Positions 24,889 to 31,902 of a stretch of DNA of 64,000 bases are shown one piece after another (position 1 is the stretch's first letter; the number at the start of each line of letters is the position of its first letter). This DNA is from Prolixibacteraceae bacterium (lineage in GTDB: Bacteria > Bacteroidota > Bacteroidia > Bacteroidales > Prolixibacteraceae): NCBI GenBank assembly GCA_030602265.1, contig JAUWAB010000007.1:44795-108794 (forward strand), given 5' to 3'. Position numbers and translations under genes: made by a program. Under the pieces are notes generated by a model, which was not told where the DNA came from, searched no databases, and worked only from the letters and a program-made list of their open reading frames with translations.

Positions 24889-26172
24889 TCACTTTTTCAC
24901 CGGAATCTGTCCCTTCAGTACAATATTCTGGATATTTGAATAATCATACAGATAGAAACCATCGCTCCCGATCATAAACAAAAGGCCATTCACCGGGATG
25001 ACATCGTAGGTTTTAATATTGGGGAAAGAGGCAATTTGGTTGTTACCTACCCTGGTTTTGTCGGATGCATTAAATACCTTTAATCCTGCATCACCGTCGC
25101 ACACAAACAGGATATCCCCGTCAATACCAAGACCATAGGGACTATTCATATTAAACGACCCCACCAACAGGTTGCTTTTATAACCTGCCCCAAGCTGAAT
25201 GACATCCAGCCGGTTGGTGGTACTCCTGCACACCTGTCCGCCCCTCAGGGTCACATAGGCATAGCCGTCGGAAACCACTACCGGGTCACAACTGGTCACA
25301 TGCCAGAAGTTGGAAACATATTTGGGTGCCAGAGGCACTTCCAGGCTGAGGATTATCATACCCGACATGGTGCCCAGAAACATATGGTTATCATAGATGA
25401 ACATGGTTTCCACGTCCCAGCCAACGTTTTGTTTGCCGGCGTTAACCGGAGAGGCAGGCAACCTGACATCAAACATATAGCAGTTGCTGTTGTCGACAGC
25501 ATAGAGGTAGTCACCATACAGTCCGAACCGGGCCATAGAACCACCTATACCGGAAGCAGATCCTGAAGATCCCCCTACCCCACCTGACGAATTGGAATAG
25601 GAAGCGTCCAGTTGCATTCTTCCTCCCCACATGGGATAGACCGGGTAATAACGGTATTCCATTTCCTGCCTGACCTTTTTGATTTCCCAGTCAATGACCA
25701 CTCCCTTATCCTTGTCCACTTCGGCCATCCGGAAGTTGTTATCAGCTGGAGGCACGAGGTAAGGAAGGACATCCTTCAGCCTGGCCACTTCACGGATATT
25801 GTTCAGATCAGAGACATCGATGGCCACCAGGTCAATATAGCTGTCGGCATACAAGGTACTTTGCCGGATGGCGATATCCACGCAACCGGGGACTTCGATG
25901 AACCCCCTTTTCTGCGGACTGGAGGGATTCTGCAGGTCGATGATATGGACACCTTTACGGTCTTCGACCACGAAAATATAGTTATCCTTAAAATAGATCT
26001 TTCCGGGCTTCTCCAGATCACGCGCAGCGGTGGACTTAACAGCCAGGCGGAGATCCTCATAACTCATGTAAACCGGGGAATTAGCCGTAAACACTTCGGT
26101 ATAGGTATCCATACAGGCTGAAAAGACCACTGTCAGTGCGATAAATGCAAACAAACGATATATGATTTTCAT
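24889..26172 (-). CDS. LVIVD-repeat lipoprotein
   Basis: Lipobox VVFSACMD; repeats of the type VHIIDLQNPSSPQKRGFIEVPG and LVAIDVSDLNNIREVARL. Confidence 0.8.
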   Translation of the reverse strand: MKIIYRLFAFIALTVVFSACMDTYTEVFTANSPVYMSYEDLRLAVKSTAARDLEKPGKIYFKDNYIFVVEDRKGVHIIDLQNPSSPQKRGFIEVPGCVDIAIRQSTLYADSYIDLVAIDVSDLNNIREVARLKDVLPYLVPPADNNFRMAEVDKDKGVVIDWEIKKVRQEMEYRYYPVYPMWGGRMQLDASYSNSSGGVGGSSGSASGIGGSMARFGLYGDYLYAVDNSNCYMFDVRLPASPVNAGKQNVGWDVETMFIYDNHMFLGTMSGMIILSLEVPLAPKYVSNFWHVTSCDPVVVSDGYAYVTLRGGQVCRSTTNRLDVIQLGAGYKSNLLVGSFNMNSPYGLGIDGDILFVCDGDAGLKVFNASDKTRVGNNQIASFPNIKTYDVIPVNGLLFMIGSDGFYLYDYSNIQNIVLKGQIPVKK

Positions 26173-26179
26173 AGCTTTC

Positions 26180-26989
26180 TTAATTTATGATAAGACCAAA
26201 CTTAACAGACAGGCGGTTGAAATCCACATCCAGGTTATACTCGTTATCTCCGCTGTAACGAAGCCTGTGAAAACGGTAACCGACCGCAAACGTGAAGCCG
26301 TAACCAGTCCGGGACTGACTGATAAATCCGACCGCCGGATTCAGTAAAAAACCGCCCTTAGCCTTTAACGCGCTCTGGTTTATGGGCATAGGCCCCGGCC
26401 AAATGACGCTTGAATAAACGCTCTCCGGCACGATATTGTAGTAAAGCGTTCTTGAGTTTTCGGCAGGTACCTGATAACCCGCCTGCAGAACAGCATATGG
26501 TGAAAACCGGGTATCGCGCAACCGGTACAACAGGTTTGCAGACAAAGGCAGATAGGTCTCTTTCAGGAATTCCACCCCAACACCGGCACCCGCCGAAAGG
26601 TTATTCCAGAAGGTGTAATTCAGGGATGTCCCTACGCTGAGCGGAGCCGACTGGCTGTTATCCGGATTCCCTGCAAGTACGCCGATCTCCGATAAACTGA
26701 ACCAGCGTGAAGGCTGGATAAAGCCTTCATTGAACTCAGGATCCGGGGCATACTGCCTTGCCGGTCGCTGGCTTGTAACCAGCTCAACTTCAGAGGTATT
26801 GAATATCCAGGTATTCCGGCCGGATACTACCCTAAGTTTTTCAAGGTCATTGGAATAGAGGTACCTTCCCTTGATAACCACGCCATCTTTGAGATGAATG
26901 TACCCCCTTTCATAAACGCCATAGGGTGCTTGCCCATGGCTTACCATTGCGAACAGTAACGCAAAAACAAAAGTCAGTAGTTTATACAT
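26180..26989 (-). CDS. outer-membrane beta-barrel protein, uncharacterised
   Basis: Signal peptide; alternating barrel strands in the C-terminal half; 7 bp from the downstream LVIVD lipoprotein. Confidence 0.65.
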   Translation of the reverse strand: MYKLLTFVFALLFAMVSHGQAPYGVYERGYIHLKDGVVIKGRYLYSNDLEKLRVVSGRNTWIFNTSEVELVTSQRPARQYAPDPEFNEGFIQPSRWFSLSEIGVLAGNPDNSQSAPLSVGTSLNYTFWNNLSAGAGVGVEFLKETYLPLSANLLYRLRDTRFSPYAVLQAGYQVPAENSRTLYYNIVPESVYSSVIWPGPMPINQSALKAKGGFLLNPAVGFISQSRTGYGFTFAVGYRFHRLRYSGDNEYNLDVDFNRLSVKFGLIIN

Positions 26990-27007
26990 GTCAGTTACGG
27001 TTTTTCT

Positions 27008-27036
27008 TTAGATGGGATAACTTTGCGGAAGGTTGC
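27008..27036 (-). promoter_or_regulatory. ECF-type promoter P3: GCAACCTT-N14-CATCTAA upstream of the 26180-26989 gene
   Basis: Minus strand -35 GCAACCTT (27036-27029), 14-nt spacer, -10 CATCTAA (27014-27008); same sequence and spacing as 29097-29125. Confidence 0.65.
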
Positions 27037-27050
27037 GTCCAGGATATTAA

Positions 27051-28445
27051 TCAGAATTCATAACTGATCCCTGTGAATACGCCAACCCTCCATGGTTTAA
27101 AATTCACATCCCCGCTGTGGTTGATCGAATTAAGATAGTAGCTCAGTCGAGGCTCTACAGACAGGGAGAGATTCCTGCCCATGGCGTATATCAGTCCGAC
27201 CCCTGCATTTCCGGAGAAATTTACGGTAGAAATATCCCTGGTGCTGCCAACCAGTTGCCTGTCACCGTTATTATCCATAAAAACATGGTTTCCGACGACG
27301 AAGCTGGTACTTAAACCCCCTACGAGTTCAACATCCAGCTTTGAATCGACCACCTGATACCGGGCAAACAAAGGGACTTCGACAAAATCAAAAACCTGGG
27401 AAAACTCGCCGGGTGTCAGCATTGCCGTGGACAATCCGAAGGAAGTCTCCGGCATGGAAACCAGTTCCACATTGGCAGGAGTATGGCTGAAGGCAATCAC
27501 CCCGGCGGTGCTGTTCATGGCCATCTGCCCGCGGTTCACTGATACACCGGTATTGAAGTACTTTTCTGCAGCTCCCGGTGCACTTACATAATCATATTGG
27601 GCACGGTTGCCTGAAAACATGGGGGAGTTTGAGGAGTTACCCCCGTTTCGGGAGTAGTACATCCCACTTTCAACCCTCCATCGCGAAGCTGTTTTGTATT
27701 GAAGAGAAAAACCACCGCCCATATTTGCCCGAGCATCGGCATCGGAGTAGGTCATATTTCTTGCGTATACCTGACTATGGCTTGCCGAATGGGAGGAGTA
27801 GCCCGGAGAAAGATGAACCCCGACTTTCCAGGCCGCATTAATGTCGGATTCACCAGATGCGGTTATCGCCATGTTGCCGGCAATAATCAGCTTATCGGCT
27901 TCACTTAGTTTATCCGCGGAAATGGTTTCAGATTTCACACCGGGCATTGATTCCTCCCTGAATGAATCATAGGCAATATAGGCTTTGATGGCTGACATTA
28001 GGGACATGCTCTCTTTTTCGGGCCGGGTAACATTGGGAAATCCTGCCGGCCGGGAGCCAGAAGCGTCGGGATATCCGGATGGGACCTCAGATGAAATCGA
28101 AGACCCCGGAAGCTTACCGGTAATTTCTGTGGCTGCAGGAGAGGCTTCAGTATCTGTAATGGAAGAAGTAGCGGAAGGCAATACAGAAGGCTCAGCCGGT
28201 TGTACCCTTTCAGCCAGTCCTCTATGACCGGGGCCCGACCAGTCAGGCACAAGCACGCCCGCCATAACGGCAAGCAGCAGGACTGCAGCCGCAGCCAGCC
28301 TGCGGAGGTATATAATCCTTTTATGCCCGCGTACGGCGTTCATCTCTGACCGGATGCCCTGCCAAATACGCTCAGGCGGTTCGGCAGAAAAATTCTCCAG
28401 CCTTCCGCGAAGCAATTCATCCCATCTCTCTTCTCCGTTTCTCAT
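27051..28445 (-). CDS. sigma-factor-linked membrane protein: cytoplasmic N-terminus, one TM, C-terminal outer-membrane beta-barrel-like region
   Basis: RWDELLRGRLENFSAEPPERIWQGIRSEM (anti-sigma-like N-terminus), LAAAAVLLLAVMAGVLV TM, C-terminal barrel-like strands ending ...GISYEF. ATG overlaps the sigma gene stop. Confidence 0.75.
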   Translation of the reverse strand: MRNGEERWDELLRGRLENFSAEPPERIWQGIRSEMNAVRGHKRIIYLRRLAAAAVLLLAVMAGVLVPDWSGPGHRGLAERVQPAEPSVLPSATSSITDTEASPAATEITGKLPGSSISSEVPSGYPDASGSRPAGFPNVTRPEKESMSLMSAIKAYIAYDSFREESMPGVKSETISADKLSEADKLIIAGNMAITASGESDINAAWKVGVHLSPGYSSHSASHSQVYARNMTYSDADARANMGGGFSLQYKTASRWRVESGMYYSRNGGNSSNSPMFSGNRAQYDYVSAPGAAEKYFNTGVSVNRGQMAMNSTAGVIAFSHTPANVELVSMPETSFGLSTAMLTPGEFSQVFDFVEVPLFARYQVVDSKLDVELVGGLSTSFVVGNHVFMDNNGDRQLVGSTRDISTVNFSGNAGVGLIYAMGRNLSLSVEPRLSYYLNSINHSGDVNFKPWRVGVFTGISYEF

Positions 28446-29002
28446 ATAGAGTACTTCCTGTTTTTTTTCATTTCACCATAATGGATTTCCACCTTATGCC
28501 TTAATAATTCTCTGGCCCGCGAAAGGTTAGACTTCGAGGTTCCTTCAGAGATTCCGAGTTCCTTACCGATCTCCTGATGACTGTATCCCTCCATGACGTA
28601 TAAGTTGAATACCAGGCGATACTGGGGAGGCAATTCCCGGATCAGGCCCACCAGGTCTTCAAGCGGGAGCCCGGCCATCGCTTCATCCGGATTTGTCGCC
28701 ATGTCATGCTTCCCGATTTCATCCACATACAACACTGGCTGGTTTTTCCGGTACCGGTCAAGGGCCGTATTGACCATGATCCGCCTTACCCATCCCTCAA
28801 AAGAACCCTCGTGCCTGAAATCCTTCAGCTTTGTAAAGACCGTGATGAAACCATCCTGCAGATTATCTTCAGCCTCAGCGGTATCTCTGGCGTACCGCAG
28901 ACAAACCCCAAACATTTTTGGCGCCAGCATGCGGTATAACTTTTCGTGGGCCCGGTGATCCCCCGAAACGCAGGCATCAATTATTTTCCTGATGTCTTCC
29001 AA
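28442..29002 (-). CDS. ECF-type RNA polymerase sigma-70 factor
   Basis: Sigma region 2 (YRMLAPKMFGVCLRYARDTAEAEDNLQDGFITVFTKLKDFRHEGSFEGWVRRIMVNTALDRYRK) and region 4 (PPQYRLVFNLYVMEGYSHQEIGKELGISEGTSKSNLSRARELLR). Confidence 0.95.
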   Translation of the reverse strand: MEDIRKIIDACVSGDHRAHEKLYRMLAPKMFGVCLRYARDTAEAEDNLQDGFITVFTKLKDFRHEGSFEGWVRRIMVNTALDRYRKNQPVLYVDEIGKHDMATNPDEAMAGLPLEDLVGLIRELPPQYRLVFNLYVMEGYSHQEIGKELGISEGTSKSNLSRARELLRHKVEIHYGEMKKNRKYSI

Positions 29003-29022
29003 GCTAAGTTTCCAATTTTTCT

Positions 29023-29030
29023 CAAAAATA
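29023..29030 (-). promoter_or_regulatory. Bacteroidota primary-sigma -7 box (TATTTTTG) upstream of the ECF sigma gene
   Basis: Minus strand TATTTTTG, about 20 nt before the ATG; an upstream GGATAAT-N8-ATTATCC inverted repeat (29032-29053) occupies the spacer. Confidence 0.5.
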
Positions 29031-29096
29031 CGGATAATTACCGGCTATTATCCACACAATATGCCGTTGCCGTCATTTCAATCGCACAGTTTACCC

Positions 29097-29125
29097 TTAG
29101 ATGAATTCCACCTGAAAAAGGTTGC
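29097..29125 (-). promoter_or_regulatory. ECF-type promoter P1: GCAACCTT-N14-CATCTAA driving the sigma operon
   Basis: -35 GCAACCTT (29125-29118), 14-nt spacer, -10 CATCTAA (29103-29097). Confidence 0.7.
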
Positions 29126-29151
29126 GTGACCAAAAAATATTCAGCACAGGC

Positions 29152-29179
29152 GCAACCTTACAGTTTCTGTTTACGTCAA
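29152..29179 (+). promoter_or_regulatory. ECF-type promoter P2: GCAACCTT-N14-CGTCAA driving the serpins
   Basis: -35 GCAACCTT (29152-29159), 14-nt spacer, -10 CGTCAA (29174-29179); diverges from P1. Confidence 0.65.
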
Positions 29180-29320
29180 TTCTAATATCCTGAACTTCTT
29201 TGTTTTGGACTGAAACCTTCCGGGAAGCCAAGGGAAGACGGGTCAAGTCACGGCAAACCGGTGACGGATGTGGGTTCCGCGGAAAACGGCCAGGAACGCA
29301 ATAACAAGGATGTTTACAAA

Positions 29321-30574
29321 ATGAAAAAGGTTATGAGAAAAAGCGCTAAATTCATTCTGATCTTAACGGCACTCCTGACAGTGACCATACCAGGCTGCAA
29401 CCTGAGCGACCCTGCTGATACACCCGATTTTGAAGTAAGTGAAAAATCTGCCCGCCTGATTGATGCCAATAACCAGTTTGGATTTGAACTTTTTCAGCAG
29501 GTATATGCCTGGGAAGAAGAAGCCGAAAACATTATGGTTTCTCCGTTAAGCCTGGCTTTGGCACTGGCCATGACTTACAACGGGGCTGAAGGGACAACGA
29601 AGGTTGCGATGGAAAAAACGCTGAGACTAAACGGGTTAAGCACATCCGAAATAAACGAATCATACCAGTCGCTGGTAAAAAACCTCCAATCGGTTGATCC
29701 CAAGGTACTTCTTGAAATCGCCAATGCCATATTCTACCGGAAAGACTTCGAGGTGGAAAACAATTTTGTACAGGTAAACCAGACTCATTACAACGCTGAA
29801 ATTTCCGCTCTGGATTTTGACAGCCCTCTGGCACTTCAGACCATTAACGGCTGGGTAAACGACAAAACCCGGGGCAAGATCCCGTTCATCCTGGACCAGA
29901 TCACCCCTTCGCATGTGATGTTCCTTCTCAACGCCATTTATTTCAAAGGCACCTGGACAAAAGAATTCAATCCTAAAAACACTGTTAAACAAGACTTTAC
30001 AACAGGACAGGGAACTTCTGCAGAAACAAACCTGATGCACCGTGTCGACACCCTGGATTACCTGCGGAATGACCTTTTCAGTGCCATACGTCTTTCCTAT
30101 GGAAAAGAAAATTACAACATGTACGTACTTCTTCCGGAACCCGACAAAAAAGTGGAGGATATCATTGCCAGGCTCAATAAGGAAAACTGGACAACCTGGA
30201 TGAAACAATTTAAAAAGACCAATACGGTCGACATCATGCTACCACGGTTTAAATTTCCTTATGAAATCAAACTGAATGATGTGCTTACCGACATGGGGAT
30301 GGGTATCGCCTTTGGCTCAGCCGCAGATTTCACGGGAATCAACCGGGGAGGCGAGCTCAATATTGATTACGTAAAACAGAAGACTTTTGTCGAGGTTAAT
30401 GAAGAGGGCACTGAAGCCGCTGCGGTGACAGTGGTTGCCATTGAGCGGACAAGCATTGGGCCTTCGAAGACCTATTTTCACGTAACCCGGCCCTTCCTGT
30501 TTGCCATTACCGAGAAAACTACCGGGGCCGTGATGTTTATCGGAACCGTAAAAAACCCGGCAGCTGGTTCCTGA
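29321..30574 (+). CDS. lipoprotein serpin 1 (serine/cysteine protease inhibitor family)
   Basis: Lipobox TIPGC; serpin motifs NAIYFKGTW, hinge EVNEEGTEAAAVT, VTRPFLFAITEKTTGAVMFIGTV. Start moved from GTG 29261 to ATG 29321. Confidence 0.93.
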   Translation: MKKVMRKSAKFILILTALLTVTIPGCNLSDPADTPDFEVSEKSARLIDANNQFGFELFQQVYAWEEEAENIMVSPLSLALALAMTYNGAEGTTKVAMEKTLRLNGLSTSEINESYQSLVKNLQSVDPKVLLEIANAIFYRKDFEVENNFVQVNQTHYNAEISALDFDSPLALQTINGWVNDKTRGKIPFILDQITPSHVMFLLNAIYFKGTWTKEFNPKNTVKQDFTTGQGTSAETNLMHRVDTLDYLRNDLFSAIRLSYGKENYNMYVLLPEPDKKVEDIIARLNKENWTTWMKQFKKTNTVDIMLPRFKFPYEIKLNDVLTDMGMGIAFGSAADFTGINRGGELNIDYVKQKTFVEVNEEGTEAAAVTVVAIERTSIGPSKTYFHVTRPFLFAITEKTTGAVMFIGTVKNPAAGS

Positions 30575-30660
30575 CCAGAAAGAAAGGAAATCTGCCGTTA
30601 ATCTTTCAGGAATGATTTTTGTATAATAACCTTCTGTATAACCATCAAAAAACTACAGCC

Positions 30661-31902
30661 ATGAAGACGATATTCACCCTGATAATCCTCCTTTCCTTTG
30701 GGATAACTTCGTGCAATAAGCAGGAAGCAAATCCTGAAGGCCTTTTTAACCTGCCCGAAAAGTCGGCCCAGCTGATCGAGGCCGACAACCAGTTTGGCCT
30801 GGAGCTTTTCCGGAAAGTAGCTGCAGAAGCCAATCCCAATGACAATACACTGATCTCGCCGCTAAGTGTTGCCCTGGCGCTGGGTATGACCTACAACGGG
30901 GCATCGGGCGATACCCGGACCGAAATGGAGAAGACGCTTAAGGTACACGGCCTTACCATGGAACAGATCAACCAGGCCCATAAGGCGTTGCTGGAAGCAT
31001 TGAAGGCAGCCGATCCAGACGTAATGCTGGAAATCGCCAATGCCATATATTACCGGCAAGGCGCAACTGTATTGGAAAGCTTTAAAAACCTGAACCGGGA
31101 GTATTATGATGCCGAAATCAATGCCCTTAGCTTCAACAACCCTGAAGAGGCGCTTCAAATCATTAACAGCTGGGTTTCAAACAAAACCAGGGAAAAAATA
31201 CCGACGATCCTGGATCAGATTGAACCAGACCTGATCATGGTCCTGCTCAATGCCATTTATTTCAACGGCATCTGGAAATATAAATTCGATGAGGATAAAA
31301 CCCACGAACTGCCCTTCCTCCAAGGCAACGGACAATGGAAGGACGTGGAAACCATGAACCAGGAAACATCGCTTGAATATACCAAAAACAACCTGTTCTC
31401 TGCGATCCATCTGCCATATGGCAAGGAACAGTTCAGAATGACGGTAATCCTGCCTGAATCCAATAAGTCAACAGGAGATGTAATGGCAGCCATGAATCTC
31501 GACAACTGGAAAAACTGGATGAAATCCTTCAAAAAAGAAGACAAGGTGGTGGTTACCATGCCGAGGTTCAAATTTTCCTGGCAGACAGAACTGAAGGACA
31601 TCCTCTCCGCCATGGGTATGACCAAGGCATTCACCCCTTATGTGGCCGATTTCTCAGGCATCAATGGAGCGAAAGACCTCTTTATTGGTTACGTAAAGCA
31701 TAAAACCTTTATTGACGTAAACGAAAACGGTACTGAAGCGGCAGCTGTGACTGCTGTCGGGATGTTCACCACCAGTATGCCGGTAGATCCGCCCAATAAG
31801 GTTTATTTTAAAGTGGACAGGCCATTTATATTTGCCATTACGGAAAAGTCGACCGGCGTAATCCTGTTTATCGGCGAAATACGGGCTCCGGAATACAACT
31901 AA
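30661..31902 (+). CDS. lipoprotein serpin 2 (tandem paralogue)
   Basis: Lipobox GITSC; NAIYFNGIW, DVNENGTEAAAVT hinge, VDRPFIFAITEKSTGVILFIGEI. Start moved to ATG 30661. Confidence 0.93.
   Translation: MKTIFTLIILLSFGITSCNKQEANPEGLFNLPEKSAQLIEADNQFGLELFRKVAAEANPNDNTLISPLSVALALGMTYNGASGDTRTEMEKTLKVHGLTMEQINQAHKALLEALKAADPDVMLEIANAIYYRQGATVLESFKNLNREYYDAEINALSFNNPEEALQIINSWVSNKTREKIPTILDQIEPDLIMVLLNAIYFNGIWKYKFDEDKTHELPFLQGNGQWKDVETMNQETSLEYTKNNLFSAIHLPYGKEQFRMTVILPESNKSTGDVMAAMNLDNWKNWMKSFKKEDKVVVTMPRFKFSWQTELKDILSAMGMTKAFTPYVADFSGINGAKDLFIGYVKHKTFIDVNENGTEAAAVTAVGMFTTSMPVDPPNKVYFKVDRPFIFAITEKSTGVILFIGEIRAPEYN

Follow-up and report, generated by a model that had tools for sequence, protein, structure and literature searches.

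A candidate extracytoplasmic function sigma factor regulon that includes divergent tandem serpins in Prolixibacteraceae

Results

The stretch of DNA analysed here (the window) comprises 64,000 nucleotides of contig JAUWAB010000007.1 from a bacterium of the Prolixibacteraceae, a family of anaerobic Bacteroidota (GCA_030602265.1), and all coordinates given are those of the window. It contains the gene of an extracytoplasmic function (ECF) sigma factor, the adjoining gene of a membrane protein, an operon encoding an outer-membrane protein (OMP) and an LVIVD-repeat lipoprotein, and two tandem serpin genes that diverge from the sigma gene. Three promoter-like sites of one type precede these genes, and their reading as one promoter regulon is well supported by comparison with related genomes. 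The features are as follows.

24889 to 26172, minus strand: LVIVD-repeat beta-propeller lipoprotein, downstream gene of the P3 operon (Pfam LVIVD; co-conserved with the OMP gene)
26180 to 26989, minus strand: OMP of 269 residues (structure model, fold search)
27008 to 27038, minus strand: P3, predicted promoter of the OMP/LVIVD operon, ACGCAACC-N16-CATCT, 47 bp before the OMP start (sequence; conservation)
27051 to 28445, minus strand: putative Dma/Reo-type anti-sigma factor (Pfam OMP_b-brl_2, structure model, barrel fold matches, adjacency to the sigma gene)
28442 to 29002, minus strand: ECF sigma factor of 186 residues, TTG start (Pfam Sigma70_r2 and r4_2, NCBIfam sigma70-ECF; alignment of 12 orthologues)
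29097 to 29127, minus strand: P1, predicted promoter of the sigma/anti-sigma operon, ACGCAACC-N16-CATCT (sequence; conservation in orthologous loci)
29118 to 29159, no strand: 9-bp inverted repeat made of the P1 and P2 -35 elements (sequence)
29150 to 29179, plus strand: P2, predicted promoter of the serpins, GCGCAACC-N16-CGTCA (sequence; conservation at serpin-bearing loci)
29321 to 30574, plus strand: serpin 1, predicted lipoprotein, reactive loop EEGTEAAAVTVVAIERTSIGP (Pfam Serpin, 2e-112; hinge intact)
30661 to 31902, plus strand: serpin 2, predicted lipoprotein, reactive loop ENGTEAAAVTAVGMFTTSMP (Pfam Serpin, 1.2e-113; hinge intact)

The protein encoded at 27051-28445 has 464 residues and carries the Pfam OMP_b-brl_2 outer-membrane barrel domain at its C terminus. 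In a structure model with an overall predicted local distance difference test score (pLDDT) of 65, high in the barrel only, helices occupy residues 5-16 and 25-65, residues 66-174 have a pLDDT below 50 (a disordered tether of about 110 residues), and the barrel covers residues 205-463. One transmembrane helix lies between the N-terminal domain and the tether, and in a fold search of the PDB the barrel matched outer-membrane barrels. The Dma2 anti-sigma factor is built from an N-terminal domain, a transmembrane helix, a disordered tether and a C-terminal beta-barrel (PMC13088901), and the anti-sigma partner of EcfO in Phocaeicola vulgatus, named Reo (PMC13114119), has the same architecture through all compartments (PMC9308784). 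Because the modelled architecture equals that described for Dma2 and the EcfO partner, the most fitting reading of the protein is a Dma/Reo-type anti-sigma factor. The original prediction had called it a sigma-linked membrane protein and missed both the anti-sigma nature of the protein and the wider lipoprotein regulon described below.

Both right-hand genes encode full-length serpins, and no further serpin was found in the genome. The closest solved relative of serpin 1 is miropin of Tannerella forsythia (PDB 5ncs, 5e-83), and the hinge of the reactive loop is conserved (EEGTEAAA and ENGTEAAA). Serpin 1 most plausibly starts at the ATG at 29321, which gives a lipoprotein signal, rather than at the upstream GTG at 29261. 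In the reactive loops extracted from the serpins the inhibitory hinge is preserved and the bait region varies from one tandem copy or lineage to another; such variation would fit a predicted inhibition of several proteases. The OMP has no Pfam match; its structure model and a fold search gave an 8-stranded barrel of OmpW-like fold with a small N-terminal beta domain. The sigma reading frame of the window begins with TTG at 29002, and its orthologues begin with ATG.

The three sites were found at the positions and strands, and with the spacing, originally predicted. P1 (29125-29097, minus strand) and P3 (27036-27008, minus strand) both read GCAACCTT-N14-CATCTAA, and P2 (29152-29179, plus strand) reads GCAACCTT-N14-CGTCAA. 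The core of the predicted motif was correct, but the conserved -35 element is longer than had been described (ACGCAACC). Alignment of the sites gave the consensus ACGCAACC-N16-C[AG]TCT, with a T-rich start of the spacer and near-zero information elsewhere, and the -10 element follows GCAACC by 16 +/- 1 nt. The sites have the features of ECF-type promoters, namely an AAC-containing -35, a CGTC/TCT-like -10, fixed spacing and a copy at the sigma factor's own gene. No promoter of its own was found for serpin 2.

In the window, GCAACCTT-N13..16-CRTC occurs four times as compared to 0.06 expected from shuffles, and the fourth match is intragenic. The same pattern gave 11 matches in the whole genome and 3 in a reversed control, most of the others being intragenic, and GCAACCN15-17CRTCT gave 9 matches in the genome and 8 in the control. 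Such counts are too weak to serve as the sole evidence, thus comparative tests were used. This genome alone does not prove a regulon; conservation across relatives is the convincing part.

The conservation set consisted of 61 genomes (our own and 60 relatives), and 36 orthologous loci of Prolixibacteraceae and relatives were compared (35 fetched loci and the window). A homologue of the anti-sigma factor is encoded in 45 of the 61 genomes. The sigma gene lies beside the anti-sigma gene in the window and in all 35 fetched loci, and a divergent serpin stands next to the sigma gene in the window and in 26 of the 35 (27/36). According to named genome records, the pair family occurs in Prolixibacteraceae (Mariniphaga, Draconibacterium, Maribellus, Sunxiuqinia and Mangrovibacterium) and in other Bacteroidales, and more distant relatives among the Flavobacteriaceae have the sigma pair without serpin. 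Cultured species, for example Mariniphaga anaerophila and Sunxiuqinia elliptica, have both the sigma pair and the divergent serpin. The LVIVD gene is co-conserved with the OMP gene across relatives.

The sigma-ward site P1 was present in 35 of the 36 loci, as compared to a mean of 0.1 and a maximum of 2 in 200 dinucleotide shuffles of the same intergenic regions. The serpin-ward site P2 was found at 26 of the 27 loci with a divergent serpin and at none of the nine without (p = 1e-7; the loci share descent, so p-values overstate their independence). The sole negative locus among the 27 has a variant -10. The P2 count was made with regions extended 60 bp past extrapolated serpin starts, and is 20/27 without this extension. 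P3 preceded the OMP gene at 10 of 11 linked loci, including three with 1.3 to 3.1 kb between this gene and that of the anti-sigma factor. As the flanking bases carry near-zero information, shared descent is not enough to account for the conserved sites. A scan of relatives had been proposed as a check of the original prediction, and a motif no more frequent than in shuffled sequence as its refutation; both outcomes favour the prediction: the motif is kept at the orthologous P1, P2 and P3 positions, and in the window and in orthologous intergenic regions it is far above shuffles.

When all genes with an intergenic gap in these loci were considered, the motif preceded 64 of 79 regulon genes vs. 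7 of 224 others. The regulon genes without it are mostly either second tandem serpins, whose position within an operon would account for this, or sigma genes that have an inserted lipoprotein gene in front; three of the seven motif-bearing other genes are such inserted lipoprotein genes.

The motif also follows genes that have moved. Where the OMP/LVIVD pair is on another contig, or 129 and 237 kb away in two single-contig genomes, the motif is still found close upstream of the OMP gene, and where the OMP and LVIVD genes are divergent there is usually one copy for each. Five unlinked serpins carry the motif, all in genomes with an anti-sigma homologue (in G038 a weak homologue match only), and the motif was absent from seven serpins in four genomes with no detectable anti-sigma factor. 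Several unlinked serpins in genomes with the sigma pair are also without it, which indicates that not every serpin is a target. There are about 30 other ECF-type sigma genes in our own genome, and a similar upstream site was found at one only. This gene (L095, G000:C152:27269) has GCAACATT-N14-CGTC close upstream, a possible case of cross-talk.

Beyond the locus, GCAACC-N15..16-CRTCT gave 142 matches in 12 relatives as compared to 52 in the reversed control. Under a strict rule, a lipoprotein signal was assigned to 20 of 33 genes at promoter-placed matches vs. 47 of 296 neighbouring genes (p = 8e-8). NigD-like lipoproteins (Pfam NigD_N, NigD_C) stand under the motif in relatives (L302, L338 and L170), and no clear NigD-like target was found in the window's own genome. 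In this genome, promoter-placed sites precede the genes of a propeller lipoprotein (C9:1921; motif in 2 of 3 orthologues), a small lipoprotein (C9:38634), another lipoprotein (C83:91546), an FKBP-type lipoprotein (C125:61529) and a secreted protein (C114:5). A further small lipoprotein (C110:19136) is doubtful as a target; the conserved ACG before CAAC is missing and the protein is unrecognised by Pfam. Weak homologues of it adjoin serpins of relatives. In Draconibacterium mangrovi the serpin-ward promoter would drive a NigD-like lipoprotein gene, and no serpin is present there. As other exported or membrane proteins can stand under the serpin-ward promoter, the serpins seem to be a client that is specific to this lineage, in a surface-stress system of older origin.

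Several variations in gene content were seen among the relatives. Four-serpin clusters adjoin the sigma pair at two loci of one genus (L063 and L069), and their reactive loops differ. At seven loci of other Bacteroidales, a single-helix membrane protein of about 50 residues (for example MKHFRMIKVNPNFILLLLVIAFFVLLLAAENVVKLTLIP) takes the serpin position behind a divergent promoter of the same type. At ten loci of Flavobacteriaceae and others, a small lipoprotein gene heads the sigma operon; its signal ends in SCSxDDD or similar, it lies about 490 bp before the sigma gene, and its promoter reads GCAACC-N14..16-C[AG]TC. A small cysteine-rich lipoprotein (FNCC ... CxCxCPYD) lies between P1 and the sigma gene at L058, L066 and L069, and an unlinked member of this family with the same promoter was found at L313. 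At L326 and L271 the LVIVD relative is split into two exported polypeptides, each with a signal peptide, downstream of the promoter motif, and several genomes show similar splits. A lipoprotein with a weak match to a trypsin-like domain and the promoter motif (L293, G034:C1:825888) is a possible protease in a serpin regulon.

Discussion

The original prediction held that one ECF sigma factor serves its own operon, the serpins and the OMP/LVIVD operon through one type of promoter. The comparison of loci argues for this: the sites are conserved, P2 tracks the divergent serpin (26/27 vs. 0/9), and the motif follows moved OMP/LVIVD genes, seldom precedes other genes (7/224) and is missing at almost all other ECF sigma genes. 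We consider it highly probable that a Das/Dma (EcfO/Reo)-type response to outer-membrane stress is encoded here, with serpins serving as effectors in this lineage. The architecture of the anti-sigma factor speaks for it, and so does a regulon that resembles those of Das1 and EcfO in being rich in lipoproteins, with NigD-like ones among them in relatives. Several points weigh against this reading. The regulon is read from sequence comparison, and we infer the binding of the sigma factor to the sites and to the anti-sigma factor from their linkage. The NCBIfam assignment of the sigma factor above cut-off is to the ECF superfamily only. P2 is the weakest match of the three window sites and differs from the consensus at two positions, and the bare motif counts in our own genome are just 1.1-4 times those of the control.

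These low counts are what would speak for chance matches, an explanation that is scarcely conceivable given that shuffled intergenic regions yield P1 at 0.1 loci vs. 35 and that all the comparative evidence opposes it. A more specific alternative concerns the divergent promoters. The -35 elements of P1 and P2 form the predicted inverted repeat AAGGTTGCG/CGCAACCTT (arms at 29118-29126 and 29151-29159), which is perfect over 9 bp in the window and might be an operator through which a dimeric regulator controls both divergent genes. We rejected this operator, and such a regulator is very improbable. The distance between the inverted arms at 26 loci ranges from 10 to 51 nt and beyond, up to 403 nt, whereas each arm keeps its own -10 at 16 +/- 1 nt; loci without serpin retain one arm only, and P3 and the unlinked sites are single. 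The proposed check of the repeat in orthologous intergenic regions thus went against a fixed spacing of the arms, and the repeat is two promoters' -35 elements, with no operator. The promoters could also be read mainly by another ECF sigma factor, or by several that overlap, the neighbouring sigma gene being one more target. About 30 other ECF-type sigma genes are available in the genome and one of them has a similar site before it, but we find this improbable: the site is present at this sigma gene in nearly every locus and missing at nearly all other ECF sigma genes, and serpins are without it in genomes lacking a detectable anti-sigma factor. ECF sigma factors paired with a dedicated anti-sigma factor usually autoregulate, which also disfavours it.

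The regulon may be real and its serpins still have a task inside the cell envelope. Under envelope stress they could curb proteases that the bacterium itself secretes or keeps in its periplasm, or they could protect lipoproteins and vesicles, and we give this a substantial chance, although somewhat less than even. Both Das/Dma and EcfO/Reo are responses to envelope stress that have effects on vesicles (PMC13088901, PMC13114119), the co-regulated products here are envelope proteins and an FKBP-type lipoprotein, and in one relative a trypsin-like lipoprotein is under the promoter (L293). Two points favour external targets and neither is decisive: reactive loops vary from one tandem copy to the next and among lineages, which fits varied external proteases, and those bacterial serpins that have been characterised target proteases of the host (PMC8233489). 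For the serpins studied here, a role in defence against external proteases is plausible.

For the outer-membrane stress response that we favour, the following mechanism is suggested. The anti-sigma factor would span from the cytoplasm to the outer membrane and hold the ECF sigma factor with its N-terminal helices, while the long tether and the outer-membrane barrel would serve as the sensor, either of the condition of the envelope or of an agent from outside. Once relieved, the sigma factor would read ACGCAACC-N16-C[AG]TCT promoters, and its targets would be the sigma operon itself, the OMP/LVIVD operon, the lipoprotein serpins on the divergent side and surface lipoproteins encoded at scattered sites. 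On the cell surface or close to it, the serpins may then trap proteases. It is conceivable, if unlikely, that the loop is closed, with external proteases from predators, competitors or a host cutting or disturbing the surface barrel or tether of the anti-sigma factor, and the freed sigma factor raising the surface serpins that trap those proteases, much as SigV-RsiV does for lysozyme. If true, bacterial serpins would here be induced by the very proteases that they trap.

We searched the literature for links between bacterial serpins and sigma factors and found none. The present comparison would give these puzzling proteins a conserved candidate regulator and a testable regulatory context, and would give a Dma/Reo-like system a readable promoter consensus for predicting regulons from sequence. 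The comparison also points to the inhibition of proteases as an output of outer-membrane stress signalling in Bacteroidota, and since cultured relatives have the sigma pair and the divergent serpin, this idea is open to experiment.

Among known systems, miropin (PDB 5ncs) is like serpin 1 as its closest solved relative, with the inhibitory hinge intact in serpin 1; regulation of miropin by an ECF sigma factor is not described in the literature searched. SigV/RsiV of Bacillus subtilis and relatives is induced by lysozyme and is the model for a target-induced inhibitor loop (PMC5014341). Its anti-sigma factor has an unrelated architecture, and a protease signal at our locus is a hypothesis.

EcfO/Reo of Bacteroides fragilis and P. 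vulgatus (PMC9308784, PMC13114119) is closer. Its anti-sigma factor also spans all compartments, its sigma gene is autoregulated, and it has a small regulon with NigD surface lipoproteins and a proposed outer-membrane stress signal, and protects against antibacterial toxins. It belongs to other species, and no serpin is mentioned in either of these two reports. In gut Bacteroidales, Das1 and EcfO both induce NigD-like proteins (PMC13088901, PMC13114119). In the Das/Dma system of Bacteroides thetaiotaomicron (ECF21; Dma1 and Dma2; PMC13088901), an ECF sigma gene likewise adjoins the gene of a tethered, barrel-ended anti-sigma factor, and there are extra operon genes and NigD-like targets (Dma1), as in the relatives studied here. 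No serpins are reported for the Das/Dma system, and our locus is not known to have a vesicle phenotype. What sets the present lineage apart is the divergent promoter that faces the serpins, together with the OMP/LVIVD operon.

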